33,158 nucleotides of DNA from a virus (IMGVR_UViG_3300020710_000327:1-33158), one strand, 5' to 3'; counted from the stretch's first letter, positions 1 to 26,247 are shown. Numbers and translations: made by a program. Notes: generated from the letters alone by a model not told the origin.

Positions 1-60
1 TTTCGCCAGAGTCGTTTTACCCGACCCTGGCAAGCCCATTATTAATATCTTCTTATTCAT
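1..60 (-). CDS. P-loop kinase, N-terminal fragment (possible APS kinase-like)
   Basis: Only the first 20 codons are in the window, read leftward from an ATG at 58-60. They encode a short beta strand rich in I, L and M followed by a Walker A loop, GLPGSGKTT, at about residues 9-17. That is the classic nucleotide-binding start of small P-loop kinases. The ATG overlaps the TGA stop of the symporter gene (57-59) as ATGA, so translation is probably coupled. Adenylate-kinase-like and adenylylsulfate (APS) kinase-like proteins with this kind of N-terminus are common in aquatic T4-like phages. The sulfotransferase-like genes nearby make an APS kinase attractive, but the substrate-binding part lies outside the window. 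The P-loop assignment is firm; the substrate is a guess. Confidence 0.72.
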   Translation of the reverse strand, partial: MNKKILIMGLPGSGKTTLAK

Positions 61-1514
61 GCAGAAGCCTTGCTAACTTTTGTAATAGTAAGTGCAAGTG
101 CACCGCTACCAAATACTGCTAGCATAGTTCCTAAAACTGCAATGTTTGGTCCACCACCAAAGTTCATACCATAAACATAAGTTGTAAATCCTACTAGGTA
201 TGCAATCAATACACCCCAGAACATTCCACGTTCATTGATAAGTGATTCATTCCACAAACTAATCATAAGTGGGAACCAAACTGTTGCACGTAGAATACCA
301 AAGAATAAGAAGATTGTTACAAGTGTCATACCAGGCCAGTTAGCCAATGTTAACCCAGCAACAATTAGTGCAAGCATACCTAAACGACTTGTTCTAACAA
401 CTGCATCACTAGTATCTTCTCTTCCTAATAGATTATGAAGGTCATGACCGCTGATATTACCAACACTACTCAATTGGCTATCAAGCACACTAACAAGACC
501 AGCAAATAACATGAATAGATACATGATTGCAGCCCAACTTGGTAGCAAGCCACCAACAGTTAGAATGTTTACATATCCAAGAAGTTCTTTAGGAACTGCA
601 TAATGTAAACCAGCAGCAGTAAACCCAAGAACACCAGTAAGAAGTGGCGTGATAATAAAGATAAATGCACCAAGAACAAATGATTTTACTATGCTATCTT
701 TGCGGATAGAAAAAGCACGTTGATAGAACGCATTGTCACCCCATGGTGCACCTAAGTGACCAATAGCAGTTGCAAATCCAACTCCCATAAACACACCTAA
801 CGCAAAATCAGTTCCAAAAATTTCACGACCATTGCCAGTGATACCACCTAATCCAAGATTTACAATATCTAAACCACCAGCAGCCGCAATGGTTAATGGA
901 ACAAGAATAATAAGTCCAAGAACTAGTGTGCTTAATTTGAAAATTTCAGTAATAACACTTGCCTTCAAACCACCACGAATTGTATATGTAAGCGCAATTG
1001 CGGCAATAATAAGACTAACGACATGATAATTTAATCCAGTAAGTACTTCAACACTTTTACTACCAGCAAGAACATTGATAGCAAAAGAGCAAATAGCCAA
1101 TGCTACAAGTTCAATGATAAACAAAATTTGAACTCTTGTACCAAATTTTTCTTTAAGATATCCACTGATAGTAAAACCATCAGGTTTACGATCACGCAAT
1201 GTCTTGGCAAACCAACTAAACAATATCAGTGATAAAAAATTACCGATACAAAACCAAAATAAACCTACTAGACCATTTTGATATGCTTGCTGTGCACTAA
1301 TAAACATACCTGGTGCCCACATCCATGCAGCACCTGTACTCATAGCACCTTGAAGTGTACTCAACTCACGACGAGCAACGAGAAATCCTTCTTTGGTTGC
1401 GGTGTATCCACTAGCAAACCAATATGTTAGTCCAAATATAACAGCGGCATACGCTGCCAATACTGTTAATCCTGTTCCACTATCAAACAGTGGGAACAAC
1501 TTAGTAAAGTCCAT
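57..1514 (-). CDS. Sodium:solute symporter (SSS family)
   Basis: A 485-residue integral membrane protein, close to the usual SSS length, with about 13 hydrophobic segments along its whole length. Family signs are the motif YTIRGGLKASVITEIFK near residues 177-193 and VLDSQLSSVGN at residues 343-353. In the second motif, S349/S350 sit where the paired hydroxyl residues of the Na2 sodium site are found in this LeuT-fold family. SSS proteins import sugars, amino acids, urea, carboxylates or similar solutes with sodium across the inner membrane. The DNAFYQRAFSIRKDS loop recalls urea/DUR3-type and proline-type members, but the substrate cannot be read. A strong Shine-Dalgarno (AAAGGAG) sits 5-6 nt before the ATG, inside the end of the upstream gene, which it overlaps by 14 nt. 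The frame is complete, with no sign of decay. A full symporter is unusual phage cargo. Confidence 0.88.
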   Translation of the reverse strand: MDFTKLFPLFDSGTGLTVLAAYAAVIFGLTYWFASGYTATKEGFLVARRELSTLQGAMSTGAAWMWAPGMFISAQQAYQNGLVGLFWFCIGNFLSLILFSWFAKTLRDRKPDGFTISGYLKEKFGTRVQILFIIELVALAICSFAINVLAGSKSVEVLTGLNYHVVSLIIAAIALTYTIRGGLKASVITEIFKLSTLVLGLIILVPLTIAAAGGLDIVNLGLGGITGNGREIFGTDFALGVFMGVGFATAIGHLGAPWGDNAFYQRAFSIRKDSIVKSFVLGAFIFIITPLLTGVLGFTAAGLHYAVPKELLGYVNILTVGGLLPSWAAIMYLFMLFAGLVSVLDSQLSSVGNISGHDLHNLLGREDTSDAVVRTSRLGMLALIVAGLTLANWPGMTLVTIFLFFGILRATVWFPLMISLWNESLINERGMFWGVLIAYLVGFTTYVYGMNFGGGPNIAVLGTMLAVFGSGALALTITKVSKASA

Positions 1515-2250
1515 TTTGATACTCCTTTAAAAATTTGTTTATTGATTCTTGTGCGGGACTTAAATTTATTGCATTTATATTATACAAATTTTCAAGAATT
1601 TGCAAATTGTTTTGCATACTGACCATACGAGTATGTACGGCTGTAAAATCTAACTCATCTATTGTATCCCAATTTAAATGTTTGTATAATTTTTGAAGTA
1701 ATTTAGTTGGTTCATTTTGTAAAATATCGTTTACAGTAATCTTAACAATACGAGAATCTATTACGTCGCAGTGACGATTGTCAATCTCTTGTTGTAATCG
1801 TTCTGTTAATTGTTCATCATCCCTAATGTCAAGCATACCATACCAACGTTCACGAGTCATCTTTGTTTCATTGTTTAACCAACATAAGAATACTTCATCT
1901 AGCGTAGGTCTTTCAATGAAAATAATGCGATCATCGTTATTCATCCAATGAAGAATTTGGTGGATGGCTGCATTAACATCTTCGCCTATGGCTGCTGGCC
2001 ATCCACCATATATGCTGTAACCCCAGTGGGAATTGGTATTACGGCACTTTTCTAGTTCTTCCATAAAAGAATCTGTATCACGCACCTTGCAAAAACTTGC
2101 ATAACCATGGCTGCTGCCATCTGGTTGCAACGGATTATCCATTATTGCTGGTTGAAAGTTTTTTCTTATTGCATTAAATCGATCTAATGCCCAACCAATA
2201 AAGCTTCCATAAGCACCAGGTGCGTATACGATACAGATTACTCGATTCAT
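1501..2250 (-). CDS. P-loop sulfotransferase-like protein
   Basis: A 249-residue soluble protein. It opens with a hydrophobic strand and a glycine-rich turn, VYAPGAYGSFIGW (residues 8-20), in the place where sulfotransferases bind the 5'-phosphosulfate of PAPS. It ends with a helical stretch around RIVKITVNDILQNEPTKLL that resembles the C-terminal part of phage sulfotransferase-like proteins. A central RIIFIERPTLDEVFLCWLNN segment could be the second (3'-phosphate) region. The start overlaps the stop of the ferritin-like gene as TAATG, and the 3' end overlaps the symporter by 14 nt, so it belongs to the leftward coupled set. The loop is not a canonical Walker A (no GK[ST]). The family call rests on overall pattern only; catalytic function and acceptor are unknown. 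Confidence 0.45.
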   Translation of the reverse strand: MNRVICIVYAPGAYGSFIGWALDRFNAIRKNFQPAIMDNPLQPDGSSHGYASFCKVRDTDSFMEELEKCRNTNSHWGYSIYGGWPAAIGEDVNAAIHQILHWMNNDDRIIFIERPTLDEVFLCWLNNETKMTRERWYGMLDIRDDEQLTERLQQEIDNRHCDVIDSRIVKITVNDILQNEPTKLLQKLYKHLNWDTIDELDFTAVHTRMVSMQNNLQILENLYNINAINLSPAQESINKFLKEYQNGLY

Positions 2251-2996
2251 TAATTCATCGCCATTAAAATGCCAGTGTCGTGCTTAACGAAGTCAGTGAT
2301 AGTTACACCTTCTGCTGCTTCAAACATGTCCTTTGCTTCTTGTAGTGGCTTAGTATTCATGCAAGAGATGCTATAAAGATCAACACGCATCTTCTTTGCA
2401 ATTTCAGCAGCACGAAGTTGGTTTTCAGGAGTATCGCAAAGCTGTTCAAGTTTCAAACGACCAATGTTGCTATGGAAACCTTCGTCATGTCCAATCTTTG
2501 CATAGCTATTGGCAATGAAAGTATCTTCAATGCATTCAGCCATCTTGTTCCAAACACGTTCTGCACGACCTTCTGCAATGAACTGATAAAGAGCAAGAGC
2601 AAGTTCGTCAGTTTCTGCTTCATACTTTTCAAGAAGGTCAGCGCCTTTTGCAGTTGGCTTTGCAGCTTCTGCATCAATAGCAGCCTGAACATCTAGCGGT
2701 TCACCTGTAATCTTTTCAATGCATTCTTTAACCATGCGGAAGTGAACTGCTTCATCAAATGCTTGCTTAGCAATATTCTGCAATTCAATTGGATCACTGT
2801 TTGCTGGCATTGTAGCAACACGGTTTGAGATTTCAACCATGTTCATACGTTCATTGACCATACGACCAATAAAGTGATTTACAAGCTTTTCCTTGCTTGG
2901 CTTGCTTGCAAAATATGCTTCTGTTTGCATTTCACTAGCACGAAAAAGTGGTTCGTTAAGGGTTTTTAGATTCTTTACAAATTCTACTGCGTTCAT
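2250..2996 (-). CDS. Ferritin-like di-iron carboxylate protein
   Basis: A 248-residue, largely helical protein with metal ligands spaced as in ferritin-like four-helix di-iron enzymes. A helix-1 glutamate (E49 or E55) is followed by E82-A-V-H85, then by helix-3 glutamates near 142-146, and by E172-G-F-H175. The two ExxH motifs lie about 90 residues apart. The size and the first ligand block recall aldehyde-deformylating oxygenase and related oxidases, but no subfamily marker was recognised. Di-iron proteins of this fold activate oxygen to oxidise or hydroxylate a substrate, or store iron. A ribosome site AAAGGA precedes the ATG at 2994-2996. A slightly upstream ATG is out of frame and closes after two codons. 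It lies 12 nt after the 2OG oxygenase-like gene, so two iron-oxygen enzymes are adjacent. Confidence 0.65.
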   Translation of the reverse strand: MNAVEFVKNLKTLNEPLFRASEMQTEAYFASKPSKEKLVNHFIGRMVNERMNMVEISNRVATMPANSDPIELQNIAKQAFDEAVHFRMVKECIEKITGEPLDVQAAIDAEAAKPTAKGADLLEKYEAETDELALALYQFIAEGRAERVWNKMAECIEDTFIANSYAKIGHDEGFHSNIGRLKLEQLCDTPENQLRAAEIAKKMRVDLYSISCMNTKPLQEAKDMFEAAEGVTITDFVKHDTGILMAMN

Positions 2997-3008
2997 GTCA
3001 TTTTTCCT

Positions 3009-3740
3009 TTAAAGTTTGACTACTAAATTTTTACTGGCACCGCCTACCACTTCACGTGTTCGGTCAGTGACATATCCTGTAATTTGCAACATAGGACGGT
3101 CCCACCATCCCATATTAGCAGTGGCGTGTGGCATATCTTGCCATTCCCAAGTGATACAATCACCTGCTCGCCATTGAGTAAAGTTGGCATTGCCTAGTTG
3201 AAATACTTGTCCCATTTCCCAATCTGCTAGCATAATGGCAAATCGACGCATGATATCTGGATTTTTATCCATATCAGTTACTTTAAAACTGTTTTCACGT
3301 TCTGGTCTGGCAGCAAAGTTATCAATATGAGTATGCAGCATTTGACCAGTAGTTTGATTATGGAACTTAATCATACTTTCATCCATACCAAGCCAATTGC
3401 TTACCTGTTGAAAGATTTCGATATCTTCTGCTGCGGTACGATTAAAAACTTCTTGCTCAGGGTTAGCGCCAGCACGAATCAAATCTTGTTCTTCTGCTGT
3501 TGCACTATACAATCCCTTATCAGCAATTTCTTTGTTGAAATTATTACGTGTTCCCCAACTGCTTGCTTTTGTACGAGGCATACATTCACGAATTGCATCC
3601 GTAAAATCTGCATCAAATCTGCAAACATGTGTATAGCTGTCTATACCAGGCTGTGGCACCCGTTTAGTATCAAAATGCCAACGGCTGCGGCTCTTAGTAA
3701 ATTCCCAACGACTATCGCCCCAATTTTCATACTCTGTCAT
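3009..3740 (-). CDS. Fe(II)/2-oxoglutarate-dependent oxygenase-like protein
   Basis: A 243-residue protein with the metal triad expected of the jelly-roll (cupin-type) oxygenases. HTHID gives H138 and D140 (or H136), a distal H205 lies in DMPHATAN, and R215 in WWDRPMLQITG is a candidate for binding the 2-oxoglutarate carboxylate. The strand content between these points (RFAIMLADWEMGQVFQLG, RAGDCITWEW) fits the fold. T4-like aquatic phages often carry such enzymes; substrates are mostly unknown and may be proteins, nucleic acid bases or metabolites. It is the first gene of the leftward set. A TATAAATA late-type promoter lies 53 nt upstream, and a weak AGGA site sits 11 nt before the ATG. Fold confidence is fair; substrate is unknown. 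Confidence 0.62.
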   Translation of the reverse strand: MTEYENWGDSRWEFTKSRSRWHFDTKRVPQPGIDSYTHVCRFDADFTDAIRECMPRTKASSWGTRNNFNKEIADKGLYSATAEEQDLIRAGANPEQEVFNRTAAEDIEIFQQVSNWLGMDESMIKFHNQTTGQMLHTHIDNFAARPERENSFKVTDMDKNPDIMRRFAIMLADWEMGQVFQLGNANFTQWRAGDCITWEWQDMPHATANMGWWDRPMLQITGYVTDRTREVVGGASKNLVVKL

Positions 3741-3829: not shown

Positions 3830-4567
3830 GTGAATAGAAAAATTTACAACTATTTGTATAAAAATTTACAAGATGCCTTTAATTTACCAAAGTATGATGA
3901 TTTTCGTAACACAATGGACGAAAATACCGATGTTGCAGCATTGCCATGGACACCAAAACGTTGGGAAAAATTTGTTGAAACAGTAAATCAAAATTTTGAT
4001 TTAGATATTAATTTTACTGGAACTCTGGCTGATGTTACACATGATATAGATCAGAAATATAGCTCAAGATTTTGGGGTGGCATTTGGCAACCTCGCACCG
4101 AAGTATATCAGTTTACAGGTTGGAATATTGTAGAACTTATTAATAAGGCAAATCCAAAGGCAGTGTTAGATGTTGGCTGTGGCTTTAATCAGTTTAAAGC
4201 ACGTATTCCTAATCTAGTTGGCATTGATGCTTACAATCATAGTGCTGATTATATGGTTGATATTTTAGATTACAATGTTCCAAATGAAACTTACGATCAT
4301 GTTATAGTATTTGGTAGCATTAACTTTGGTGAATTTAGTGATATCAATGCTAGATTTAAAAAAGTAATTGATTTGACTATGGTAGGCGGAAAAATATATG
4401 TTCGTGCAAATCCAGGCCATGTTCACAAAAATGGCCAGTGGGTGGATATCTATCCGTGGGATTTTGATACTGCTTATAAGATTGCTCAAATTCATAACTG
4501 TGAATTGAGTTCTTTTAAGAAAGATAATGGTGATAGACTTTATTTTGAGTTAAAGAAAAATGCCTAA
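3830..4567 (+). CDS. Class I SAM-dependent methyltransferase
   Basis: A 245-residue protein. Motif I of the Rossmann methyltransferase fold is AVLDVGCGFNQF near residues 110-121. It is followed by the strand LVGIDAYN, whose acidic residue would hold the ribose of S-adenosylmethionine, then by MVDILDY and a strand YDHVIVFGSINFG in the motif IV position. A later GGKIYVRANPG strand completes the fold. The N-terminal 100 residues are family-specific and were not recognised, so the acceptor is unknown. The start is a GTG with a poor ribosome site (GTGGAAAA); the next ATG would remove 27 residues. The end overlaps the next gene by 8 nt (ATG inside the last codons), so the two are likely co-translated and may act on the same product. 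Confidence 0.75.
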   Translation: MNRKIYNYLYKNLQDAFNLPKYDDFRNTMDENTDVAALPWTPKRWEKFVETVNQNFDLDINFTGTLADVTHDIDQKYSSRFWGGIWQPRTEVYQFTGWNIVELINKANPKAVLDVGCGFNQFKARIPNLVGIDAYNHSADYMVDILDYNVPNETYDHVIVFGSINFGEFSDINARFKKVIDLTMVGGKIYVRANPGHVHKNGQWVDIYPWDFDTAYKIAQIHNCELSSFKKDNGDRLYFELKKNA

Positions 4568-5201
4568 ACTAATAGTTTTATTTGGACCACAAGGAAGTGG
4601 TAATCATTTATTTGGTAAAATATTTTCAATGCATCCTGATGTTCACGGATGGAAGGATGCACTGAAACCAGATGGTTATTTTATTCCCCATTACAAAGAA
4701 CCATTTAATTGGTATTGGAATAATATTGATGCGATTGATATGGATATTATGGGTGGCAAAGAATATGCCGTTACTAGTATTTCAAATCCATACATTGAGA
4801 AATGGTTACCAAAAGTTCCACCAATTTATGAGTTTATGGAAAAATGTGAAAGCATTGGCATTGAAGTTCAACCAGTTGTAATAGGGCGAGATAGAAATAT
4901 CCTTACTCATCAACAAACCCGATTGCGAGGTGGACCAACTTGGGGCAATATGCCTCAACTTATACAATGGATGAAAGAGCCACCATTTTATATTTCACAA
5001 GAATTATTATATCTTTATCGTAAACAATATGTAAAGAGCTTAGCACACTGGTTAGATTTTCCTCTTCTTTGGGATGATCCACAAATAGAAGAAATTTTAA
5101 AAGAAGATGCAAACGAAAAGTATATTACTGCTAGTGATTGCACAGACTTAGACGAGCATGTTAAAATTATATTAACACCGCCATGGTTAAAACCACAATA
5201 G
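4560..5201 (+). CDS. P-loop sulfotransferase-like protein
   Basis: A 213-residue protein starting with strand LIVLF and the loop GPQGSGNHLF at residues 9-18. This resembles the phosphosulfate-binding loop of sulfotransferases (GxxGSGN-type) more than a kinase Walker A, since asparagine replaces the lysine. The following segment, IFSMHPDVHGWKDALKPDGY, fits the helix and loop after the PAPS site. A later IEVQPVVIGRDRNIL resembles the RDP-type second phosphate site (R, D, R). The gene overlaps the methyltransferase by 8 nt and ends just before the gp14 promoter. It is not an obvious close paralogue of the other sulfotransferase-like gene at 1501-2250. The acceptor could be a polysaccharide or small molecule; none is indicated. 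Confidence 0.5.
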   Translation: MPKLIVLFGPQGSGNHLFGKIFSMHPDVHGWKDALKPDGYFIPHYKEPFNWYWNNIDAIDMDIMGGKEYAVTSISNPYIEKWLPKVPPIYEFMEKCESIGIEVQPVVIGRDRNILTHQQTRLRGGPTWGNMPQLIQWMKEPPFYISQELLYLYRKQYVKSLAHWLDFPLLWDDPQIEEILKEDANEKYITASDCTDLDEHVKIILTPPWLKPQ

Positions 5202-5235: not shown

Positions 5236-6318
5236 ATGCCAAGATTAAGTTTATATAGAGAAAATCACACCAATGATTATAAATGGCAAGATAACCGTAT
5301 TCTTGAATTATATACGGTTGGTGGTGTAGGTATTAATGTACACAAATATCTTGGTCCTGTTACAAATGGACAATCTACAGATTTAACTGAACCAAATTAT
5401 TTAAATTCTACTGAAAAAAATTTGCAAGATTTGCTATTCATGGAAAACCGTGACCGCAAATATGACAAAGATATCTATGAACTACGTGGGCACTATAGTG
5501 TTCAAGACAATGATTTTAACTTAAGTCAGTTTGGTCTTATGGTTAATAATGATACCTTGTATATTACCTTTCACAATAATGATATGGTTAGTCGTTTAGG
5601 CAGAAAAATCATGCCTGGTGATGTATTTGAAATGCCGCATCTTCGTGACTATTTTCCACTTGATGAAACTTTGCCAGCAGCTTTAAAGAAATTTTATGTT
5701 GTACAAGAAGCAACTCGTGGAAGCGAAGGTTTTGCACAAACGTGGTGGTCGCATATTTGGCGTTGCAAAGTTGCTCCAATGGTAGATGCGCAAGAATATC
5801 GTGATATACTAAACGAACCAGCTACAAACAATACAACATCTACTATTCGTGATTTGTTAAGCAACTATAACCAAAATATTGGCATCAATGATGCAGTTAT
5901 TGCACAAGCACAAAGTGATGTGCCAACTAGTGGTTATAATACTAATAATCTCTTTATATTGCCTACAGCCGATGGTGTGACACCTATTATTGCCATACCA
6001 GGTTATTTAACAGGCAGTGCTGCGCCACCAAATGGTTTACCTGTAACTCAAGGAGTTGCATTTCCACTTAATCCTACGCAAGGTGAATATGTATTGCGTA
6101 CTGATTATGTACCAAATAGATTATTTCGTTATGATGGAACAAGATGGGTAGCACTACAAGATGTTCAACGTGCAAATATTACTGGTATCGAAAATAATAC
6201 ACAACTTGGAACATTTATCAACAATACAGCTACGGTAAAATTACCAAATGGTGCTGTTGTGCCTAGTTTACAACCACTAAGTAGTTTATTAGCACTCAAA
6301 CCAGATGCATTAGGATAA
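5236..6318 (+). CDS. gp14: T4 gp14-like neck protein
   Basis: A 360-residue virion protein of the head-tail neck. The N-terminus (PRLSLYRENHTNDYKWQDN, then GGVGINVHKYLGP) and the central block with MENRDRKYDKDIYELRGHY, FGLMVNNDTLYITFHNNDM and MPGDVFEMPHLRDY match the pattern of T4-like gp14. In T4 that protein forms the collar with gp13 and joins the tail to the filled head. A C-terminal extension near residues 275-312, LRTDYVPNRLFRYDGTRWV, is the form seen in cyanophage-type gp14 and makes it longer than T4's 256 residues. The gene directly precedes gp15 with a 4-nt gap, the T4 gene order. The ATG is preceded by a CATAAATA late element and GGGAAA. Confidence 0.85.
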   Translation: MPRLSLYRENHTNDYKWQDNRILELYTVGGVGINVHKYLGPVTNGQSTDLTEPNYLNSTEKNLQDLLFMENRDRKYDKDIYELRGHYSVQDNDFNLSQFGLMVNNDTLYITFHNNDMVSRLGRKIMPGDVFEMPHLRDYFPLDETLPAALKKFYVVQEATRGSEGFAQTWWSHIWRCKVAPMVDAQEYRDILNEPATNNTTSTIRDLLSNYNQNIGINDAVIAQAQSDVPTSGYNTNNLFILPTADGVTPIIAIPGYLTGSAAPPNGLPVTQGVAFPLNPTQGEYVLRTDYVPNRLFRYDGTRWVALQDVQRANITGIENNTQLGTFINNTATVKLPNGAVVPSLQPLSSLLALKPDALG

Positions 6319-6322
6319 TCAA

Positions 6323-7711
6323 ATGGCACAATTTTTCTATGATAAACAAATTCGTAGATTTTTAAATCAATTTATACGCATTTTTAGTGATACATATGTT
6401 GAATTTGGTCAAGACACAAATGGTAATCAAGTTCTTTATCGTGTTCCATGTCGCTATGCTGATACTAATCGTCAAGCTTCTGCTATTCTGAAACAAAATA
6501 GTGATAATGGAATTAACAGTGTTCCTCAAATGGTTTGCTATATTACTGCTGTTGATTATGATAGAAATCGTGTTCAAGAACCAAAGTTTGTAGATAATCG
6601 CAGCGTTCGCCCAAGAGCAATTGATCCTCTTACAGGAAATTTATCTACTCAACAAGGTCAAAATTTTCAATTACAAAGATTAATGCCAGCACCATATAAA
6701 CTTACAATCGTAATGGAGATTTGGACAAGCAATTTTGATCAAAAAATGCAGCTATGGGAACAAATAGCTGCTCAATTTAATCCAGATATGGAAATACAAA
6801 ATAGCGATAATTATTACGATTGGACAAGTTTAAGTTATATATTGCTTACTAACACCAACTGGACAACTAGAAATATTCCTGTGGGCAGCGATGATCCAAT
6901 TGATGTAGGAACATTTACTTTTGAAGTTCCAATTTGGATTACCACACCAGCAAAGTTGCTGCGACTTGGTATTGTTCAAAGTGTTGCAGTCAATACATAT
7001 GATGCTATGGGCAATCCTATCCAATCTATTGAACAACAAGCTAATCAACTTGGAAGCCGTCAGTATTTTACGCCTACTGGTTATCAGGTTTTAGTTAATA
7101 ATGGCAATGTAACACTGTTTCCAAGTGGTGGTCCAGAACTTAATAATACTGCATTTACTACGCCAACAACACTAGGCAACGCTATACCATGGTTTCCTGT
7201 AGTTTCAAGTTTCGGCAAGCTAGCTAATAATTATAGCATGCTGTATCTAACAGATACACAAACACAAAGTTTAATAACAGGCACAGTAGCATATGATTCA
7301 ACAAATCCAAATAATTTGCTTTTTACAGTTGATAATGCTACAATACCTACAAATGTTTTGCCTAGTGTAAATGCAATTATTAATCCACAGGTAAATGCGC
7401 CTGGTATTGGATTACCTGCTGCAAGCACTGGTCAGCGATATTTGCTCACTAATAATTTAGGTGGTGCGACACTAGGAAACGGAGCGGCAGCTTGGCAAAA
7501 TGCAAATACAAGCATTGTATCTGCGCTGCCCAATGATATTATACAATATAACGGTAACTCATGGTTTGTAGCGTATAGACCTAATGCCACAAGCAATTCA
7601 AGTTATGTTACAAACACATTTAGTAGTATACAATATGCATGGAATGGAAGCGCATGGCAAAAAAGTTGGCAAGGAATTTATCAAGAAGGTCTGTGGTCAA
7701 TCGTTCTTTAA
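6323..7711 (+). CDS. gp15: T4 gp15-like tail sheath stabiliser / tail completion protein
   Basis: A 462-residue virion protein. The first 230 residues follow the gp15 pattern: FFYDKQIRRFLNQFIRIFSD at the start, RVPCRYADTNRQASAIL, then PQMVCYITAVDYDRNRVQEP, and RLMPAPYKLTIVMEIWTSNF. They end with TFTFEVPIWITTPAKL. In T4 gp15 forms the hexamer that caps the tail tube and sheath and docks to gp13/gp14. The remainder is an extension absent from T4 gp15. Its final 90 residues (about 371-462) carry YNGNSW and WNGSAWQKSW motifs known from aquatic T4-like relatives. It lies 4 nt downstream of gp14 and overlaps the NUDIX gene at its 3' end. Confidence 0.87.
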   Translation: MAQFFYDKQIRRFLNQFIRIFSDTYVEFGQDTNGNQVLYRVPCRYADTNRQASAILKQNSDNGINSVPQMVCYITAVDYDRNRVQEPKFVDNRSVRPRAIDPLTGNLSTQQGQNFQLQRLMPAPYKLTIVMEIWTSNFDQKMQLWEQIAAQFNPDMEIQNSDNYYDWTSLSYILLTNTNWTTRNIPVGSDDPIDVGTFTFEVPIWITTPAKLLRLGIVQSVAVNTYDAMGNPIQSIEQQANQLGSRQYFTPTGYQVLVNNGNVTLFPSGGPELNNTAFTTPTTLGNAIPWFPVVSSFGKLANNYSMLYLTDTQTQSLITGTVAYDSTNPNNLLFTVDNATIPTNVLPSVNAIINPQVNAPGIGLPAASTGQRYLLTNNLGGATLGNGAAAWQNANTSIVSALPNDIIQYNGNSWFVAYRPNATSNSSYVTNTFSSIQYAWNGSAWQKSWQGIYQEGLWSIVL

Positions 7712-8130
7712 CTGCTGCTGGTGCAATCTTTATAAGCGCAAAAACAAAACGAGGATTATTTTTGCTACGTGATCAAGATACCTATAGTGACACGTGGGGG
7801 TTGGTTGGTGGTCAAGTAGAAGGTGATGAAACCTTATACGAAGGGTTGACAAGAGAAGTTAAAGAAGAAATTGGTTTTGTTCCACCAATAATAAAAATCA
7901 TACCTCTTGAATTATTCTCTTCGCCAGATGGTCATTTTAACTATCATACTTTTGTAATAATAGTGAAAGCAGAATTTATTCCAATATTAAGTAGTGAACA
8001 TAAAGGTTATGCATGGTGTGATTTAAATAATACACCAAAACCGCTGCATCCTGGTTTATACAATAGTTTAAACAACAATATTATAAAAGAAAAACTTGAA
8101 ACTATTCGTGATTTGTTAAAAATCACCTAA
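7654..8130 (+). CDS. NUDIX hydrolase (MutT-like)
   Basis: A perfect Nudix box, G-x5-E-x7-REV-KEE-IGF, lies at residues 53-75 (GQVEGDE ... REVKEEIGF). It provides the Mg-binding glutamates that hydrolyse nucleoside diphosphates linked to another group, such as damaged dNTPs, ADP-ribose, NAD(H) or capped RNA. The flanking strands AAGAIFISAKTKRGLFLLR and FNYHTFVIIVKAEFIP fit the fold. Three starts are possible. The ATG at 7639 has no ribosome site. The ATG at 7654, chosen here, has GGAATGGAAG upstream. A GTG at 7693 would begin right at the domain, with AGAAGG close by. Any of these overlaps the end of gp15. The 3' end overlaps the convergent gene by 15 nt. NUDIX proteins are frequent in T4-like phages; the substrate is not readable. 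Confidence 0.9.
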   Translation: MAKKLARNLSRRSVVNRSLTAAGAIFISAKTKRGLFLLRDQDTYSDTWGLVGGQVEGDETLYEGLTREVKEEIGFVPPIIKIIPLELFSSPDGHFNYHTFVIIVKAEFIPILSSEHKGYAWCDLNNTPKPLHPGLYNSLNNNIIKEKLETIRDLLKIT

Positions 8131-8832
8131 TAGCACAGCATCTCGTATAGTTACTTCTTGATAATTAGGCAATGTTTTAAATAATTCATCAAAATTATGA
8201 CTGTGATGATTGCGAACACGATAAAAACTTACTGAACTATATGCTGCAATTACATTATACAAATATGTATCAAAATCACGGAAATCATCTATTACTTCAC
8301 GACCATCATATCCTAGAGTGTCACTATAAATATTTTCATTTGTAACGCCATCCGTTCTATCAAAACCAAATAGAAATATCTTTTTTGCGCCATCAAACGC
8401 TGCAAGATATGCTGCGGTTGCACCAGCATCCATATGATATACATGCGGTATTAAATTTGCATCACGATATGAACTTGTCCATAATTCGTTTGTAATAAAA
8501 ACTTTATTGTGCATGTCATTTGCAATTTCAGCAAAGAAAATACCATCTTTAAAAACATAATAGTCAGCAGGCGTGTCACGATATGCAGCATTACAAGCAT
8601 ATGTTCTTTTATAGCCTTCTGCTACTCGTTGATTATTCTGGCTCAAGATAAGTTTTACTGTAGGATCAAGTCTACTGATTCCATTTCCAAGTACTACAGC
8701 AGTAGATGATGCTAAATCATATGGCAAATCACGAGGAGTAACAAACACACTTTGCATTTCTCCATCACGAACATATGAAAGAGTTTCACCTTTATAATCA
8801 CGACGATATGTTGGTTTATTTAAATTTCCCAT
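8116..8832 (-). CDS. MptE/DUF115- or sialyltransferase-like Rossmann protein
   Basis: A 238-residue protein with a nucleotide-sugar-type Rossmann pattern. It has a strand and glycine turn VVLGNGISRLDP (residues 46-57), then TYACNAAYRDTPADYYVFKDG (78-97) and GATAAYLAAFDGAKKIFLFGFD (137-158). The same order (GNGPSL, then CN..., then an alanine-rich helix with GF/GxD) is seen in CMP-sialic-acid transferases of GT42 and in DUF115/MptE-like proteins. It is the last gene of the leftward fibre block. Its ATG overlaps the stop of the repeat fibre gene as TAATG, so it is co-translated with a receptor-binding candidate. That position suggests modification of fibre or host glycan, or of a linked nucleotide sugar. 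The exact family is uncertain. Confidence 0.45.
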   Translation of the reverse strand: MGNLNKPTYRRDYKGETLSYVRDGEMQSVFVTPRDLPYDLASSTAVVLGNGISRLDPTVKLILSQNNQRVAEGYKRTYACNAAYRDTPADYYVFKDGIFFAEIANDMHNKVFITNELWTSSYRDANLIPHVYHMDAGATAAYLAAFDGAKKIFLFGFDRTDGVTNENIYSDTLGYDGREVIDDFRDFDTYLYNVIAAYSSVSFYRVRNHHSHNFDELFKTLPNYQEVTIRDAVLLGDF

Positions 8833-10247
8833 TAGAATCTTCCTACTGCTATTTCAATTTTTACTATGCTATCATCTAATATGATATCCATACTCTTGCC
8901 TATAATACAACCTGGTTCGTATAGCGATTTGTCCATTGCACATGCTACACCACGTTCACTACTACTTACCAATAAGGTACCTTTATTTACTGGTCCACGC
9001 ACTAAGCAAGGGACACGACCTGTTAGTGCGATTGGCAGCCAATTATCATGTTCAAAATTATCATTCATAAGATACGCAGGGTTTGTTGATACTACACCAG
9101 CCACCGCCGTATCATGTGTGCGGGTTGATACAGTAACATCAAGATCACCACCAAATATCATAACTGTGCCAGGTGTATAATAATCATCACTATGATACAT
9201 TTCGGCCAAATCGGCGTATTTTGCTGTCGTTGATGTGCCAGTAAATGTTACGGCATAACAGGTGCTCCAATAAGCACTTGCACTTCCCAGTGTAACGGCA
9301 TTATTACTACTTGGTGTATGAGTAGAACTTGTTATTGTGCTGAATGTACCAGCACTACTTGAGTTGCCAATAGTGGTTGCTAATAAACTGGTAGCATTGA
9401 TCGTAGCACCATTAGTTGTTCCTTGTAGGTTAGTTGTTCCACTTACAGTAAGTCCAGTTAGTGTCCCAACACTTGTGATATTTGTTTGTGCTGCACTACT
9501 TGAGTTTAACGTTCCATATAATACAGCACTTGCATTTCCAATAGTACCAGCATTTACTGCTGGTGCAGCAATTGTATCAGTTGTCGTGATGGTAGTTGTA
9601 TTGATAAATGTGGTATTACCCGCAATACTTAAGTTACCACCTACGTATAAGTTACCAGTGATACCAACACCACCGCTTACTACCAATGCGCCAGTAGTTG
9701 TACTTGTGCTTGTAGTTCCACTTGCAGCAATAATATTGCCACCACTATAAAGATTACCAGTAGTTGTAACAGTTGTAAATGCGCCCGTATTTGCAGTGTT
9801 TGCACCAATTGCACCAGTATGATAACCAGTTATCTGACCACCACTGCTTGTTGTGAAACTTGGACTTGTAAGCGCACCAGTGCTTGTGATATTACCTTGT
9901 GCAGCAGTAGTTAAGGTACCAGTAAGTAGCGCACCACTGTTTCCTAATACGCCTGCCTGTATTTGGTTTGCAGCAATGGTACCAGTTGAAGTAAGAGAAG
10001 TTAAGGTGCCAACACTTGTAATGTTACCTTGTGCTGCGGTAATTAGTGTGCCTTGTAGCAACGAGCCACTATTACCGATTAATCCTGCCTGCAATTGGTT
10101 AGTTGTAGTTGTGCCAGTCACAGTTAAATTAGCAAAAGATGGTGTAGTTGCAACTACTGTCCATGTGTTTTGTGTGCTGTTATACACAAAAGTAGTATTG
10201 TTTAATACTGCGATCTGACCATTTACTGGACTGGTTGGAAAACTCAT
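8832..10247 (-). CDS. Repeat tail fibre with YADLAE...GRVP C-terminal domain
   Basis: A 471-residue virion protein. It has a short N-terminal cap (FPTSPVNGQIAVLNNTTFVYN, with an NTW motif), then Thr/Ser/Gly-rich repeats of about 35 residues of the type GLIGNSGSLLQGTL..AAQGNITSVGTL, probably beta-helical or trimeric fibrous. A STSTTTGALVVSGGVGI linker follows, then a conserved C-terminal domain (about 342-471). This runs AKYADLAEMY, PGTVMIFGG, VAGVVSTNPAYLMN, ALTGRVP, and ends in IEIAVGRF. The same end domain occurs at the end of the 378 aa protein and is common in aquatic T4-like phage fibres. It may be an intramolecular chaperone or autoprocessing domain, as in peptidase G2-type ends, but that is inference. 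Both flanking junctions are tight: 8 nt to the LamG gene upstream, TAATG overlap downstream. Confidence 0.8.
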   Translation of the reverse strand: MSFPTSPVNGQIAVLNNTTFVYNSTQNTWTVVATTPSFANLTVTGTTTTNQLQAGLIGNSGSLLQGTLITAAQGNITSVGTLTSLTSTGTIAANQIQAGVLGNSGALLTGTLTTAAQGNITSTGALTSPSFTTSSGGQITGYHTGAIGANTANTGAFTTVTTTGNLYSGGNIIAASGTTSTSTTTGALVVSGGVGITGNLYVGGNLSIAGNTTFINTTTITTTDTIAAPAVNAGTIGNASAVLYGTLNSSSAAQTNITSVGTLTGLTVSGTTNLQGTTNGATINATSLLATTIGNSSSAGTFSTITSSTHTPSSNNAVTLGSASAYWSTCYAVTFTGTSTTAKYADLAEMYHSDDYYTPGTVMIFGGDLDVTVSTRTHDTAVAGVVSTNPAYLMNDNFEHDNWLPIALTGRVPCLVRGPVNKGTLLVSSSERGVACAMDKSLYEPGCIIGKSMDIILDDSIVKIEIAVGRF

Positions 10248-12778: not shown

Positions 12779-12786
12779 TATTTATC
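12779..12786 (-). promoter_or_regulatory. Candidate late promoter of the 120 aa gene
   Basis: The minus strand reads GATAAATA. It overlaps the TGA stop of the 1403 aa fibre gene and ends 19 nt before the next ATG. AAGGA follows in the leader. Confidence 0.5.
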
Positions 12787-15700
12787 AACTGAATATTGTA
12801 TTAAGTGCATAAATTTTGCCTACACTTGGACCAAGAGTTGCACCTGTATTTCCATTGGAAAGCAGTGCACGACTGCTAATGTCAACCCAATATGAAGCAC
12901 CGGTAGCATCACTAATATATTCATAAAGAATATCAGTATTGCCCTGATACCACTGTGCGCCAGTACTAGGGGAAAGTGGTGCAGTATTACTTGTTGTTAA
13001 TGTTACACCTCCACCTCCACCACTGCTAAATGCTAACCCATTGCTATAGTAATAAGCAGCACTGTATACTGCGCTATTACCTACTATATTTCTACCATAT
13101 ATGTTAGCAGTTTGTGCGGTAATGTTTCCACTAGATGTTATTGTTGTAAACACACCGCTATTTGCGCTATTAGCACCAATAGCACCAGTAAGATATCCAA
13201 CTATTTGTCCAGAACCAGTAATAGTTCCACTTGCAGTTACACTAGTGAAAACACCACTATTAGCTGCGTTTGCACCAATAGCACCTGTAAGATAACCAGT
13301 TAATTGACCGCCACTGTTAGTTGTTAAACTACTTGGTGATAGTGTTCCTGTATAAGTTGGCAGATATGATGCAACATTACTATTACTATAAGTTCCAGTA
13401 ATTGTACCAGAAAGTGTTGCTCCATTACTCCAATAAAATTGAGCGCCATATATTGCTATATTACCAATTAGGTTTGCAGCATACACATTAGCAGTTTGTG
13501 CGGTAATGTTTCCACTACTAGTAAGACCAGTTAATGTTCCAACACTTGTAATATTGGTTTGTGCTGCGGTTGATAGCGTTCCAGTTAATGTTGATCCCGT
13601 ATTGCCAATTGTTCCAGCATATAGAGACACGGCATTGAAATTGTTTGCATATACTGCACCACCAACACCCATACCACCACTGATTACAATAGCACCCGTA
13701 GTTGTAGATGTAGATGTTGTAGTTTGGAATACAACAATATTGCCTGCGCTATCTACTCTTAATCTTTCTACAAGAGAGTTTGCACCAGTATTGCCTGGTG
13801 CTTTTGTCCATAGTCCTATATAACCACTGTAATTACCATCATCAGTAGTACTAATTCTGGTTTCTGGGGTAGAACCACCAGCAACACTAGTATATGTATA
13901 AAAATCAATTGCACTACCAGCACCAGCACCACCGCCAGTATTAATTAAATTTAATTGTGTTTTTAATGCACCTGCTAAACTATTAGTTAAATTAAGTGGT
14001 GCTGCATTATAGTTAAAAGTTGTTGGAACTGGACCAATATATGAGTTACCCAATATAACTAGGTTACCACCAACTGTAAGGTTGCCACTTGTGCTTGCTG
14101 TTGTAAACACGCCGCTGTTAGGTGTATTAGCACCAATTGCACCAGTTAGATAGGCAATTACCTGACCACCACCACTAGTAGTAAAACTTGGACTTGTTAG
14201 CGCACCAGTGCTTGTAATATTAGTTTGTGCTGCAGTAGTTAGTGTTCCAACTAATGAAGCACCAGTATTGCCGATTGTACCAGCGTATACCGCACTGCCA
14301 TTTATTAAGTTACCATTTATCGCAGCAGCAGTATTACCTATTGTGGTTGCGTATAGGTTTGTTGCATTGATAGTGGCACCGTTAGTTGTGCCTTGTAGAT
14401 TTGTAGTTCCACTTACAGTAAGTGATCCTAATGTACCAACACTTGTGATATTGGTCTGTGCTGCAGTTGATAAGGTACCAGTTAATGTAGCACCAGTATT
14501 GCCGATTGTACCAGCATATAGCGACACACCGTTAAAATTATTTGCATATACTGCACCAACAATACCAACACCACCAGCAACTTGAAGTGCACCACTTGTA
14601 GTGTTAGTAGCAACTGTAGTATTTTGAACAAGAGCAGCACCAAATTTTATTGTATCATAAACAATATTAGTATTTGCAAGATTTACTACACCACCACTTG
14701 GTTCTGGCAAGTTAGAGAATAGATACCATTGATTATCTACGTGATTGCGTGTAAAACCAGTATGTTGATAATTGTTAATATTACCACCAACAAAATGGCT
14801 ATAGAAACCAATTTCATAGTTGTATGAGACAGCATTTGCACTCAAGTATATTAGCGGATCGCTAACAACGAGTTGCTGAGAAGTTTGTGATATAATATTT
14901 GCAGCATAAATGTTACCACCAACATACAAATCTTGTTGAATTGCTGCGCCACCTTGTGTAACAATAAGAGCACCTGTACCAAGACCGCTTGTGTTTGTTG
15001 CATTAGTAACAGTGGCTGTTGTAAATGTAGCAGTATTTGGTGTATTAGCACCAATTGTACCAGTTAGATAACCAGTTAATTGTCCGCCATTGTTTGTTGT
15101 TATGCTACTTGGAGATAGTGTTCCAGTGTATGTTGGCAGATATGAATTAACGTTGCTATTGCTATAAGTTCCTGTAATAGTTGATGCAAGAGTTGCACCA
15201 TTTGTCCAATAGTACTGACCACTATAAGATGCGGTATTTGCTACTACATACGCAGCATATACGTTAGCACTTTGCGCAGTTATGTTACCACTTGATGTTA
15301 ATCCTGTTAAGGTACCAATGCTTGTAATATTACCTTGAGCACCTGTTATTAGTGTCCCCTGTAACAACGCTCCACTATTTCCTAATACACCTGCTTGAAC
15401 TTGATTTGCAGCAATAGTACCAGTTGAAGTAAGAGAGGTTAACGTACCAACAGAAGTAATGTTTGTTTGTGCGTTGGTTATTAATGTACCACTTAAGCCG
15501 CTATTTGCTACTACATAAGCAGCATACACATTAGCAGTTTGTGCTGTTATATTACCACTGGTAGTTAATCCAGTAAGTGTTCCAACACTTGTGATGTTTG
15601 TTTGACTTGCACTTTGTGAGTTGAGTGTTCCATAAAGTACTGCACCAGCATTACCAATTGTAGCAGCGATGACAGTAGGAGCAGCAATAGTTCCAGTAGA

Positions 15701-16996
15701 ATTTAAACTCGTTAAGGTACCAACGCTTGTAATATTAGTCTGCGATGCGGTTGATAACGTACCAGTGAGTGTAGCGCCGCTGTTGCCAATAGTACTAGCA
15801 TTTATTGTTGGCGCACTAACAGTTCCTTGTGCAGTGATTGTACTAGTTGCAGTGAGGGTTGTAAATGCACCACTATTTGCGCTATTGGCACCTATTGCAC
15901 CAGTTAGATAACCACTTACCTGACCACCGCTATTAGTTGTTAAACTACTTGGTGATAGAGTACCTGTATAGGTTGGTAAGTAAGAAGCAACATTTGAATT
16001 ACTATAGGTACCTGTACTTGAAATTGTTATAGATTGCGGTATAGAGGAATTATTTGTAGTTATTGATATTCCGCTACCAGCAATAAACTGTACAGTATCT
16101 TCACCTACTGCCTTAAGGTTTCCTTGACCGTCAACATACCATGTTGAGAATGAACTTCCCAACGCAATTTTTGCAGTGTTTGGTCCCCAAGGATAAACGT
16201 GGAAACCAGTTGCTGTATCAAATCGTAAGGTAGTAATATTTGTTAATACATTTGAATATGCATTTGCAGCATTAATTTCACTTACTGTGAAATATCCACC
16301 ATAAGCATTGCCATTTGACCAGTTAAAACCATTGGCAGTTACGCTGCCACTTGCTACAATACTATTTGCATACTCAGTTTGTGTAATGGTTTCATAATTT
16401 TGTGTTGTAATATTACCAGTAACAAATAAGTTACCATTGACAGTAATATTGCCAGCAGTTAAATTACCGCTATAAGTTGGCAAATATGCGGCAACTTGTG
16501 TATTTCCATAACTGCTGCTAGTAAATGGTGTTCCATTTCCATAGTAATAAGCATTGCTATAAATTGCGCTATTTGCAGTAATATTAGTAGCGGTTATGTT
16601 GGAAAAATTGCTACCAAGATTAGCAAAGTTAATATTTGAAGTACCAACAATAATGTTACCTATGGTAGTTACATAATAAAATCGTTGACCATAGTTTGTG
16701 CCTTCATTAACATAAACAAGAAGACCCGTCGTAATACTATATGGCTGCGAGGCATCTTGAGCACGCGTCCAATTACCATTGCTTCCGCTACCTAATGTGC
16801 TTACGTAATAGATACCATTTTGGGTTGAATCGCTTTGACCTTGAACAAGTATGCGATCATTAAGGGCAAGCGTTACACCGTCAAGTGTATTTGGTGCACC
16901 ACCACTTAATGTAATATTCGTGAAACTAGTAGCACGGCAACTGTTTTTAAAGTCGCTGTCTAAAATATTTTCAGCACGAACTCTTGTTAAAGCCAT
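12785..16996 (-). CDS. Giant repeat tail fibre protein (1403 aa)
   Basis: An N-terminal domain (about 1-130) with RAENILDSDFKNSCRATS, TLDGVTLALNDRILVQGQ, QNGIYYVSTLG and RAQDASQPY is a type seen at the base of many phage fibres. It is followed by more than 1,100 residues of low-complexity beta-repeat. Recurrent modules are GTIGNTGATLTGTLSTAAQTNITSVGTL (about 35 aa), GGQVSGYLTGAIGANSANSGAFTT, and ITAQTANVYA..VVAN followed by a YYWSNGATL block. A block with DPLIYLSANAVSYNYEIGFY near 14580-14870 is shared with the 1965 aa fibre. The C-terminus ends in STGAQWYQGNTDILYEYISD followed by YWVDISSRALLSN. There is no S74 end. It is probably a long trimeric fibre. Codon pattern and composition match its neighbours. 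An AATAAATA element ends 17 nt before the ATG, with AGGA in the leader. Confidence 0.82.
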   Translation of the reverse strand: MALTRVRAENILDSDFKNSCRATSFTNITLSGGAPNTLDGVTLALNDRILVQGQSDSTQNGIYYVSTLGSGSNGNWTRAQDASQPYSITTGLLVYVNEGTNYGQRFYYVTTIGNIIVGTSNINFANLGSNFSNITATNITANSAIYSNAYYYGNGTPFTSSSYGNTQVAAYLPTYSGNLTAGNITVNGNLFVTGNITTQNYETITQTEYANSIVASGSVTANGFNWSNGNAYGGYFTVSEINAANAYSNVLTNITTLRFDTATGFHVYPWGPNTAKIALGSSFSTWYVDGQGNLKAVGEDTVQFIAGSGISITTNNSSIPQSITISSTGTYSNSNVASYLPTYTGTLSPSSLTTNSGGQVSGYLTGAIGANSANSGAFTTLTATSTITAQGTVSAPTINASTIGNSGATLTGTLSTASQTNITSVGTLTSLNSTGTIAAPTVIAATIGNAGAVLYGTLNSQSASQTNITSVGTLTGLTTSGNITAQTANVYAAYVVANSGLSGTLITNAQTNITSVGTLTSLTSTGTIAANQVQAGVLGNSGALLQGTLITGAQGNITSIGTLTGLTSSGNITAQSANVYAAYVVANTASYSGQYYWTNGATLASTITGTYSNSNVNSYLPTYTGTLSPSSITTNNGGQLTGYLTGTIGANTPNTATFTTATVTNATNTSGLGTGALIVTQGGAAIQQDLYVGGNIYAANIISQTSQQLVVSDPLIYLSANAVSYNYEIGFYSHFVGGNINNYQHTGFTRNHVDNQWYLFSNLPEPSGGVVNLANTNIVYDTIKFGAALVQNTTVATNTTSGALQVAGGVGIVGAVYANNFNGVSLYAGTIGNTGATLTGTLSTAAQTNITSVGTLGSLTVSGTTNLQGTTNGATINATNLYATTIGNTAAAINGNLINGSAVYAGTIGNTGASLVGTLTTAAQTNITSTGALTSPSFTTSGGGQVIAYLTGAIGANTPNSGVFTTASTSGNLTVGGNLVILGNSYIGPVPTTFNYNAAPLNLTNSLAGALKTQLNLINTGGGAGAGSAIDFYTYTSVAGGSTPETRISTTDDGNYSGYIGLWTKAPGNTGANSLVERLRVDSAGNIVVFQTTTSTSTTTGAIVISGGMGVGGAVYANNFNAVSLYAGTIGNTGSTLTGTLSTAAQTNITSVGTLTGLTSSGNITAQTANVYAANLIGNIAIYGAQFYWSNGATLSGTITGTYSNSNVASYLPTYTGTLSPSSLTTNSGGQLTGYLTGAIGANAANSGVFTSVTASGTITGSGQIVGYLTGAIGANSANSGVFTTITSSGNITAQTANIYGRNIVGNSAVYSAAYYYSNGLAFSSGGGGGVTLTTSNTAPLSPSTGAQWYQGNTDILYEYISDATGASYWVDISSRALLSNGNTGATLGPSVGKIYALNTIFS
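14580..14870 (-). repeat. Module shared with the 1965 aa fibre (copy 1)
   Basis: This encodes a block with DPLIYLSANAVSYNYEIGFY, NNYQHTGFTRNHVDNQWYLF and NTTSGALQVAGGVGI. The counterpart is at about 20950-21240 in the 1965 aa gene. It is similar at protein level and clearly the same module in the same order. Confidence 0.7.
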
Positions 16997-17026: not shown

Positions 17027-18163
17027 TTACAGACGACCAACTACTACCTCTATAACGCCCGTACCATCACCAAAGTTCTCTAAGGCTTTACCGATAACAC
17101 TGCCCATGACAGGATTGTTTTCACCACGTGCAGTTCCATCGCCATTGGATACCATCATCTGACCTTTACGAACAGGTCCAGTAACTTTAGTTGGGACACG
17201 ACCAGTTAATGCAATGTATAAACCATCACTATCGCTGTTCATCATATAAGCAGGATTAGTTGATACTACACCAGCAACAGCAGGACTTTCATCAATATTG
17301 CTTAGTGTAACTTCATATTCGCCACCAAAATCAACTACTGTACCTGGTTCATAGTTTGCATCACTGCTATAACGTTCGGCCAAATCGGCGTACTTTGCAG
17401 TAGTTGATGTTCCAAGAAAATTTACTGCATATACGTTATTCCAATATGCACTTGTTGTACCAAGATTAACACTTGCGTTAGCATTTGGATATACGCCGCC
17501 GCTGCCTGCAATGATAGTTGGAGCACTTAGTGTATCAGTTGTATTAATAATTGTTGTATTGACATAAAAGGTGTTACCCGCAACACTTATGTTACCACCA
17601 ACAAATAGATTACCTGCAATTCCAGCACCGCCGTTAACAACCAAAGCACCAGTAGAATTAGATGTTGATGTTGTAGAACTGCTTATCACAAAACTATTTG
17701 TATTAGCACGGAAACGCCCGATCTCATTAGTAGTTGCGGAACCAGCAAGAGAAAATACAATATCTTTTAAAGTATAGGTAGAAATAACAAGATTACCACC
17801 ACCAGTACTTGTATTGCCAGCAACATATAAGTATCCATCATTTGGACCAGTTAAGTTATATGCTGCTTGGTTGTATCCACTGCTATTAATACCAAAATCA
17901 ATGAATGTATCATTGTCATTTCCATTATTAGCAACAGCAACAATATCTGTTGTTGCTTGATTTCCATTGTTTTGATTTTGTACAACTAATTGAACATAAT
18001 TGTTTATGTTATCACCATGTTGCAATTTTGCATATTGTGGACTATAACTTAATGCACTTCCTAAAAATACAGAGCCAGTAGTGGTAATATTACCACCGGC
18101 AGCATCAATGCTTGCTAAACCAACGGTAAGACCGTTATGTACCGTAAAATTTGTATTTGCCAT
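17027..18163 (-). CDS. Fibre protein with YADLAE...GRVP C-terminal domain (378 aa)
   Basis: The N-terminus is NFTVHNGLTVGLASIDAAGG. A block at about residues 35-170 (QYAKLQHGDNINNYVQLVVQ, TDIVAVANNGNDNDTFIDFG, YNLTGPNDGYLYVAGN) is nearly duplicated inside the 1965 aa fibre. A TSNSTGALVVNGGAGIAGN linker follows. Residues 256-378 form the conserved end domain: AKYADLAERY, PGTVVDFGGEYEV, VAGVVSTNPAYMMN, ALTGRVP, and IEVVVGRL at the terminus. This end matches that of the 471 aa fibre. It lies between the two giant fibres, with an SD-like CAGGGAG upstream and no clear late element of its own, so it probably shares transcripts with the 1965 aa gene. Likely a virion fibre or fibre-tip component. Confidence 0.78.
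   Translation of the reverse strand: MANTNFTVHNGLTVGLASIDAAGGNITTTGSVFLGSALSYSPQYAKLQHGDNINNYVQLVVQNQNNGNQATTDIVAVANNGNDNDTFIDFGINSSGYNQAAYNLTGPNDGYLYVAGNTSTGGGNLVISTYTLKDIVFSLAGSATTNEIGRFRANTNSFVISSSTTSTSNSTGALVVNGGAGIAGNLFVGGNISVAGNTFYVNTTIINTTDTLSAPTIIAGSGGVYPNANASVNLGTTSAYWNNVYAVNFLGTSTTAKYADLAERYSSDANYEPGTVVDFGGEYEVTLSNIDESPAVAGVVSTNPAYMMNSDSDGLYIALTGRVPTKVTGPVRKGQMMVSNGDGTARGENNPVMGSVIGKALENFGDGTGVIEVVVGRL
17600..18050 (-). repeat. Duplicated block shared with the 1965 aa fibre (copy 1)
   Basis: It encodes the QYAKLQHGDN...NDNDTFID...YNLTGPNDGYLY...DIVFSLAGSATTNE block. The partner at about 22430-22890 differs at scattered residues only, for example LQHGDN against FQHGDN and TTNEIGRF against TANEFARM. 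This indicates duplication followed by divergence. Confidence 0.75.
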
Positions 18164-26239: not shown

Positions 26240-26247
26240 TATTTATA
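26240..26247 (-). promoter_or_regulatory. Candidate late promoter of the 690 aa fibre gene
   Basis: The minus strand reads TATAAATA, an exact T4 late consensus, ending 20 nt before the ATG. The extended context TATAAATATTTGGA is identical to that of the 615 aa fibre gene, so the promoter was duplicated with the gene. Confidence 0.65.

Follow-up and report, generated by a model that had tools for sequence, protein, structure and literature searches.

Transporter genes have been described in phages beside metabolic genes, among them pstS, amt and tctA, the last on a SUP05 viral contig (PMC4164917). A gene of the sodium:solute symporter (SSF) family, ORF234c, was noted in 2006 in the cultured T4-like Aeromonas phage 44RR2.8t (PMC1524935; AY375531), and sulfotransferase and 2-oxoglutarate (2OG)-oxygenase genes of marine phages have been described as of unclear function (PMC10580990). 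Here we consider an operon on the minus strand at the left end of IMGVR_UViG_3300020710_000327, a 33,158-bp uncultured virus record analysed at its full length (the window), in which an SSF transporter gene, SYM, lies among genes for candidate group-transfer and tailoring enzymes. With one such gene, of a different branch, already known from 44RR2.8t, the presence of an SSF gene in a phage is no novelty in itself. Both are SSF symporters in phages of the T4 superfamily, but ORF234c belongs to an SGLT-like branch (BLASTP E 0.022 to SYM) and adjoins motA among small genes, with no such operon. The set in the window differs from the phage-borne pstS, amt and tctA in transporter family, partners and late-type promoter. 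The initial annotation of the window had recognised no known cassette in this combination, and no published description of it was found in the open-access literature.

That annotation described five leftward genes joined by TAATG, ATGA and 14-nt overlaps, with gaps of at most 12 nt; the open reading frames and junctions were confirmed directly. Its five-gene operon is, however, incomplete: the run comprises seven non-structural genes, OX-FER-S1-SYM-KIN-CYT-S3. As the annotation had advised, the sequence left of position 1 was read, in contig L002, a separate assembly that is 99.97% identical to the window over 6584 bp and extends beyond it, completing KIN and adding CYT and S3. A further pair, MT-S2, is divergent from the run and by family is part of the same gene set.

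3009-3740, minus strand: OX, 243 amino acids (aa), 2OG-Fe(II)-oxygenase-like by motif
2250-2996, minus strand: FER, 248 aa, ferritin-like di-iron protein
1501-2250, minus strand: S1, 249 aa, P-loop-like protein
57-1514, minus strand: SYM, 485 aa, SSF family transporter
1-60, minus strand: first 20 codons of KIN, adenosine 5'-phosphosulfate (APS)-kinase-like; complete gene (154 aa) at L002:6525-6989
In L002, after KIN: CYT, 120 aa, NadM-type nucleotidyltransferase
In L002, after CYT: S3, 210 aa, P-loop-like
3830-4567, plus strand: MT, 245 aa, small S-adenosylmethionine (SAM)-methyltransferase-like protein, divergent partner
4560-5201, plus strand: S2, 213 aa, sulfotransferase-fold protein with a conserved GPQGSGN loop, divergent partner
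3801-3794, minus strand: TATAAATA, T4-type late-promoter-like element, 61 nt before the OX ATG

The OX-FER gap is 12 nt; FER and S1 overlap by 1 nt (TAATG), S1 and SYM by 14 nt, and SYM and KIN by 4 nt (ATGA). In L002 the KIN-CYT and CYT-S3 junctions are 4-nt overlaps each, and an oppositely directed gene then closes the run. Compared with contig L004, the operon genes give ratios of nonsynonymous to synonymous divergence (dN/dS) of 0.03-0.19, and look to be under purifying selection. Since their order also recurs in other phages, the operon is more than chance.

The element TATAAATA keeps its position upstream of OX in L004, L171-L176, L181 and L185. Among close relatives whose operon begins with OX, it stands 58-61 nt from the OX start in one group of contigs (L004, L171, L173, L174, and L176) and 39-40 nt in another (L172, L175, and L185); the sequence around it differs between these groups, but the element itself is conserved. 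Of its 20 sites, 13 lie inside the 100 nt upstream of genes, a space amounting to 2.9% of strand-bases: a 23-fold enrichment (12 near loci), against 2 to 9 for unrelated, AT-rich control octamers of similar make-up at the same loci. The frames ATAAATAT and TAAATATA, which overlap the TATAAATA motif, give upstream ratios of 25-26. The other two minus-strand copies in the window, at 26247 and 29171, each lie just upstream of late structural genes. The initial reading of tightly joined genes controlled by a late promoter element of the T4 type is supported, and the consensus match suggests that the operon is probably expressed late.

The association of these genes extends well beyond the window. 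Searched alone, S1 gave 18 clear loci (L323, a weak partial match, was left out), and the next gene is SYM in all 15 that reach past S1, at a spacing of -14 to +26 nt. SYM was found in 54 loci below 90% mutual identity, 35 of them at least 43% identical to the window SYM. Of these 35, 83% have S2 and 80% (28/35) have MT no more than five genes away from SYM, compared with 0.9% and 2.0% at random positions on the same contigs; the loci share ancestry and are not independent trials, and their flanking genes are largely unrelated. Near relatives have the order OX-(S1)-SYM-KIN-CYT-S3 with short overlaps, a marine phage (L107) has the single run KIN-MT-SYM-S2-OX-CYT, and across L178-L188 the operon has gained an amidinotransferase/arginine-deiminase-like gene (cluster 84). 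By the initial annotation, scattering of the genes in all relatives would have spoken against the operon. FER is indeed scattered and clearly a separate addition, but OX, SYM, KIN, CYT and S3 keep their order in close relatives, and S1 and SYM are never separated. The cassette is modular, and SYM is linked recurrently with S1, S2 and MT. Phage metabolic genes are usually read singly; here, because the transporter keeps the same enzyme neighbours across unrelated surroundings, a multi-gene phage system becomes predictable and testable.

Our preferred reading, held tentatively, is that the run is a late auxiliary operon of a jumbo-phage relative in which transport is coupled to group transfer, and that it is one form of a widespread modular cassette with a core of SYM, sulfotransferase-fold proteins (S2, probably also S1 and S3) and MT. 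Late in infection SYM would take its place in the inner membrane of the host and there move a small solute, perhaps inward. KIN and CYT would make an activated nucleotide donor resembling 3'-phosphoadenosine 5'-phosphosulfate (PAPS); S1, S2 and S3 would pass the activated group to an acceptor, either the imported solute or a glycan of the cell surface or virion; and OX, FER and MT would oxidise and methylate that acceptor, all seven genes of the run presumably serving a single pathway. The recurrence of related sets in many uncultured phages suggests that phages widely practise an undescribed form of uptake or decoration of a compound while they infect. If transport without the usual sodium site does feed group transfer, phages would re-engineer membrane transport late in infection, and several protein families that abound in uncultured phages but are seldom or never met in cultured ones would gain a function.

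The transporter itself is a member of the SSF family, matching PF00474 over residues 44-437 (E 6.3e-22; 78.4 bits against a cut-off of 22.8). Full-length profile matches extend to DUR3, CHT and vSGLT, and the best solved relatives are of the urea-proton symporter DUR3. A tree was built by quick search from 108 SYM relatives, with five SSF proteins as the outgroup; the branches to the outgroup are long and the deep branching is unsure. In this tree the window SYM falls inside a clade of 37 sequences, all viral, with support of 100. S2 lies within five genes of SYM in 32 of these 37. Outside the clade, 60/71 have a PP-loop (SGGxDS) protein of the ATP-pyrophosphatase type instead of S2, a count that overstates independence because many of these rows represent one conserved Clostridia prophage arrangement. 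The PP-loop partners are of several kinds: PAPS-reductase-like, asparagine-synthetase-like, and others.

The clade also departs from its relatives at the Na2 site. The hydroxyls of this site are those of vSGLT S364/S365 and PutP S340/T341, and their role in binding Na+ is established in these two proteins. Aligned to vSGLT, SYM residue 343 matches S365 and is Val in the window; the position is Ile/Val throughout the clade (37/37), Thr in 69/71 of the others, and Ser/Thr in all five outgroups, so the canonical hydroxyl is absent from every clade member. The preceding residue, 342, is Ser in the window; Ala occupies it in 17/37 of the clade and Ser in 70/71 of the others. Judged from these alignments, the change makes a Na+ symporter less likely and leaves an SSF-fold transporter intact; loss of the residue may alter coupling in the clade. 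In short, SYM shares with DUR3 and the SSF family a Pfam match above cut-off and a full-length profile match, but differs in its phage-only clade, its Ile/Val Na2 position, and its sulfotransferase-fold and methyltransferase neighbours. It is possible, though doubtful, that a phage-only SSF branch lost the canonical Na+ site and became coupled to a methyltransferase and an enzyme of the sulfotransferase fold, which replace the PP-loop ATP-pyrophosphatase, giving an unrecognised transport-and-modify system in which SSF and TctA/TctC transporters are interchangeable in related islands.

Among the cultured phages of the collection no close SYM relative was found, apart from one unverified gut scaffold. 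Distant relatives (the L226-L300 genome contigs, L093, and L143-L164) occur mainly in Clostridia prophages, often near terminase genes, with a conserved run of SYM, PAPS-reductase-like, ParB-like, PAPS-reductase-like and ParB-like genes. In the cell-derived contigs L224, L228, L229 and L279, SYM stands in one run with asparagine-synthetase-like and zinc-ribbon genes.

The closest solved SSF relatives, being urea-proton symporters, bring in a different explanation, that of classical auxiliary metabolic genes: SYM (TctA/TctC elsewhere) would import a nitrogen- or sulfur-bearing nutrient to supply late phage synthesis, and from it the enzymes would release nitrogen, sulfur or carbon. The amidinotransferase/arginine-deiminase-like gene that joins the operon in L178-L186 would fit such a role, as would islands in which FER accompanies a glutamine-amidotransferase/Peptidase_C26 gene and a tripartite tricarboxylate transporter. 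However, identity between SYM and DUR3 is low and says little on substrate; no urease, sulfonatase or deaminase lies beside SYM; and phages usually express nutrient genes early, in contrast to what the late-type promoter of this operon suggests. Nutrient acquisition seems to us less likely than the preferred reading, though a live alternative.

Coupling of transport to group transfer, the preferred reading, draws in part on S2 and KIN. The S2 model (predicted local distance difference test score, pLDDT, 93.8) has the sulfotransferase fold: in the structure comparison (VIA), the top 17 rows are all PAPS-dependent sulfotransferases (Z 11.7 to 9.8), with P-loop kinases at 9.8 or below. Compared with the Arg and Ser of the PAPS 3'-phosphate site, S2 has an invariant R110, with Gln118 in place of Ser eight residues further along. 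KIN passes PF01583 (E 2.5e-15; 57.2 bits against a cut-off of 21.1) and keeps the APS-kinase motifs, and it falls below the cut-off of TIGR00455, the NCBIfam apsK model (E 6.5e-15; 55.3 against 138.7). An APS-kinase-like protein and a sulfotransferase-fold protein are shared with the known route that activates sulfate through ATP sulfurylase and APS kinase and transfers it by a PAPS-dependent sulfotransferase; the phage set differs in its NadM-like CYT, and no ATP sulfurylase was found in it.

A further explanation is nucleic-acid hypermodification, in which the P-loop proteins would act with the oxygenases, methyltransferase and nucleotidyltransferase to modify phage bases, and SYM would import the attached moiety. 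Known phage base-modification loci do contain 2OG oxygenases, P-loop kinases and methyltransferases, and the distant SYM relatives of Clostridia prophages lie beside PAPS-reductase-like and ParB-like genes. Nevertheless, profiles identified no DNA-modification enzyme family, S2 matches to DNA kinases never rank above sulfotransferases, and the locus sits with late tail genes. We consider this explanation very improbable.

Two further routes were considered. NAD salvage by nicotinamide riboside (NR) kinase and nicotinamide mononucleotide (NMN) adenylyltransferase, as in NadR, is conceivable in view of CYT; KIN, however, matches APS kinase rather than NR kinase, and none of the genes examined resembled NAMPT. 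The Campylobacter methyl-phosphoramidate route, which uses a CysC-like kinase, a nucleotidyltransferase and a C26 hydrolase, was set aside: a C26-type gene is present in FER islands and absent from the window operon.

The tailoring enzymes were assigned by ligands, fold and motif. No profile of Pfam, NCBIfam, PHROG or PDB matched OX, and protein P0002 had no PDB sequence match. OX residues H138xD140, H205 and R215, invariant in 13 relatives, correspond to the metal triad and downstream Arg of 2OG-Fe(II) oxygenases, and an OX relative in Synechococcus phage S-SCSM2R is annotated as a 2OG-Fe(II) oxygenase. FER is a four-helix bundle of the ferritin-like di-iron type in its AlphaFold2 model (pLDDT 88), with all six ligands (E49, E82xxH85, E142, and E172xxH175) invariant. 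Its best VIA match is MiaE (Z 16.7; 187 residues; 3.4 A), followed by CADD (an HDO-type fold), PqqC and aldehyde-deformylating oxygenase at Z 15.9-16.0. FER shares with MiaE, aldehyde-deformylating oxygenase and PaaA/PaaC this fold and the E, ExxH, E, ExxH ligands; it differs from MiaE-type di-iron oxygenases in that its sequence matches nothing significantly in Pfam, NCBIfam or PDB, and its family is one of uncultured phages, absent from the cultured phages searched. MT resembles class I methyltransferases in its motifs D-x-G-C-G and G-x-D, invariant in 23 relatives, and has weak profile matches to methyltransferases in PDB.

Exchange within the locus is evident from the sister contig L171, in which the structural protein is 99%, S2 98%, and MT and OX each 95% identical to those of the window. 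L171 lacks FER and S1, and the SYM in the same slot is only 42% identical; because the slot is kept at this identity while OX, MT and S2 stand at 95-98%, the transporter slot seems to matter. Measured against L171, synonymous divergence is 0.03 for the structural gene, 0.30 for S2 and 0.79 for OX, a rise that suggests recombination at the locus. Among SYM loci, FER is present in the window locus only. At FER loci (L015-L091 and others) a Peptidase_C26/glutamine-amidotransferase gene (cluster 6) lies within 10 genes in 46/52, regularly following FER. The FER islands share MT, S2, S3, OX, and sometimes KIN and CYT, with SYM replaced by TctC (often) or by TctA with TctC (TctA-like genes are few, and were called by inspection, not by profile). 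A gamma-glutamylation route with a glutamine synthetase-like gene had been suspected from cluster 179, whose sequence reads by eye as a TctA-type membrane protein. Given the usual neighbours of FER, its copy in the window is a stray member of a related island, an exchangeable addition that probably supplies an optional tailoring step.

Several results count against transport coupled to group transfer. S1 has no confident family match in profile searches, so that "sulfotransferase-like" denotes a loose resemblance only; S3 likewise has none, with a sub-threshold Sulfotransfer_3 match, and the S2 and S3 profiles do not align to each other. A complete canonical PAPS route is rejected, because CYT matches NMN adenylyltransferases (8.1e-8) and reaches ATP sulfurylase only at E 0.12; no ATP sulfurylase was found. 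KIN, with or without CYT, is present in phages that lack SYM. Finally, the FER, MT, S2, S3 and OX families form TctA/TctC islands without SYM. The set could therefore be no more than loosely pooled accessory genes, exchangeable, gathered beside the tail-fibre region by recombination and co-transcribed without need of a shared pathway. The occurrence of FER in this SYM locus alone and its usual place beside another partner, the recombination-like synonymous gradient, and the swapping of transporter and S1 as a block in L171 all speak for such a pool. Against it, the S1-SYM and S2-MT-SYM linkages hold amid unrelated flanks, far above background; like nutrient uptake, we think it less likely than the preferred reading, though a live alternative. 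As a separate observation, a KIN relative in cultured siphophages (L302, Stenotrophomonas phage vB_SmaS_Bhz60) has a NADAR-domain gene and a gene for a DNA methyltransferase as neighbours, without SYM.

The genes beyond S2 help to place the virus:

5236-6318, plus strand: virion structural protein, first gene beyond S2
6323-7711, plus strand: tail sheath stabiliser, second gene beyond S2
7639-8130: Nudix gene, after the tail sheath stabiliser

Among cultured phages, the closest relatives of the structural protein come from two jumbo phages, Agrobacterium phage Atu_ph07 (490 kb; 39% identity) and Pseudomonas phage PA5oct (37%); in PA5oct the structural protein, tail sheath stabiliser and Nudix genes have the same order. 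For this reason the virus is placed nearer to jumbo phages than to T4. The initial label "T4-like phage" is apt in the wide sense and fails in the narrow one: in a search with this one structural protein, the closest cultured relatives are jumbo phages rather than Straboviridae (T4 proper). Going by that protein and local synteny, the virus is predicted to be a jumbo-phage relative inside the wider T4-like world. As called, the tail sheath stabiliser and Nudix genes overlap in different frames, and the Nudix start may be further in. Large minus-strand genes at 8832-10247, 12785-16996 and 17027-18163 contain mutually similar stretches, with tail-fibre-like repeats. Close to the tail genes, the interval 8116-8832 may encode a glycosyltransferase, as it weakly matches alpha-2,3-sialyltransferase (phrog_4603, E 0.0028).

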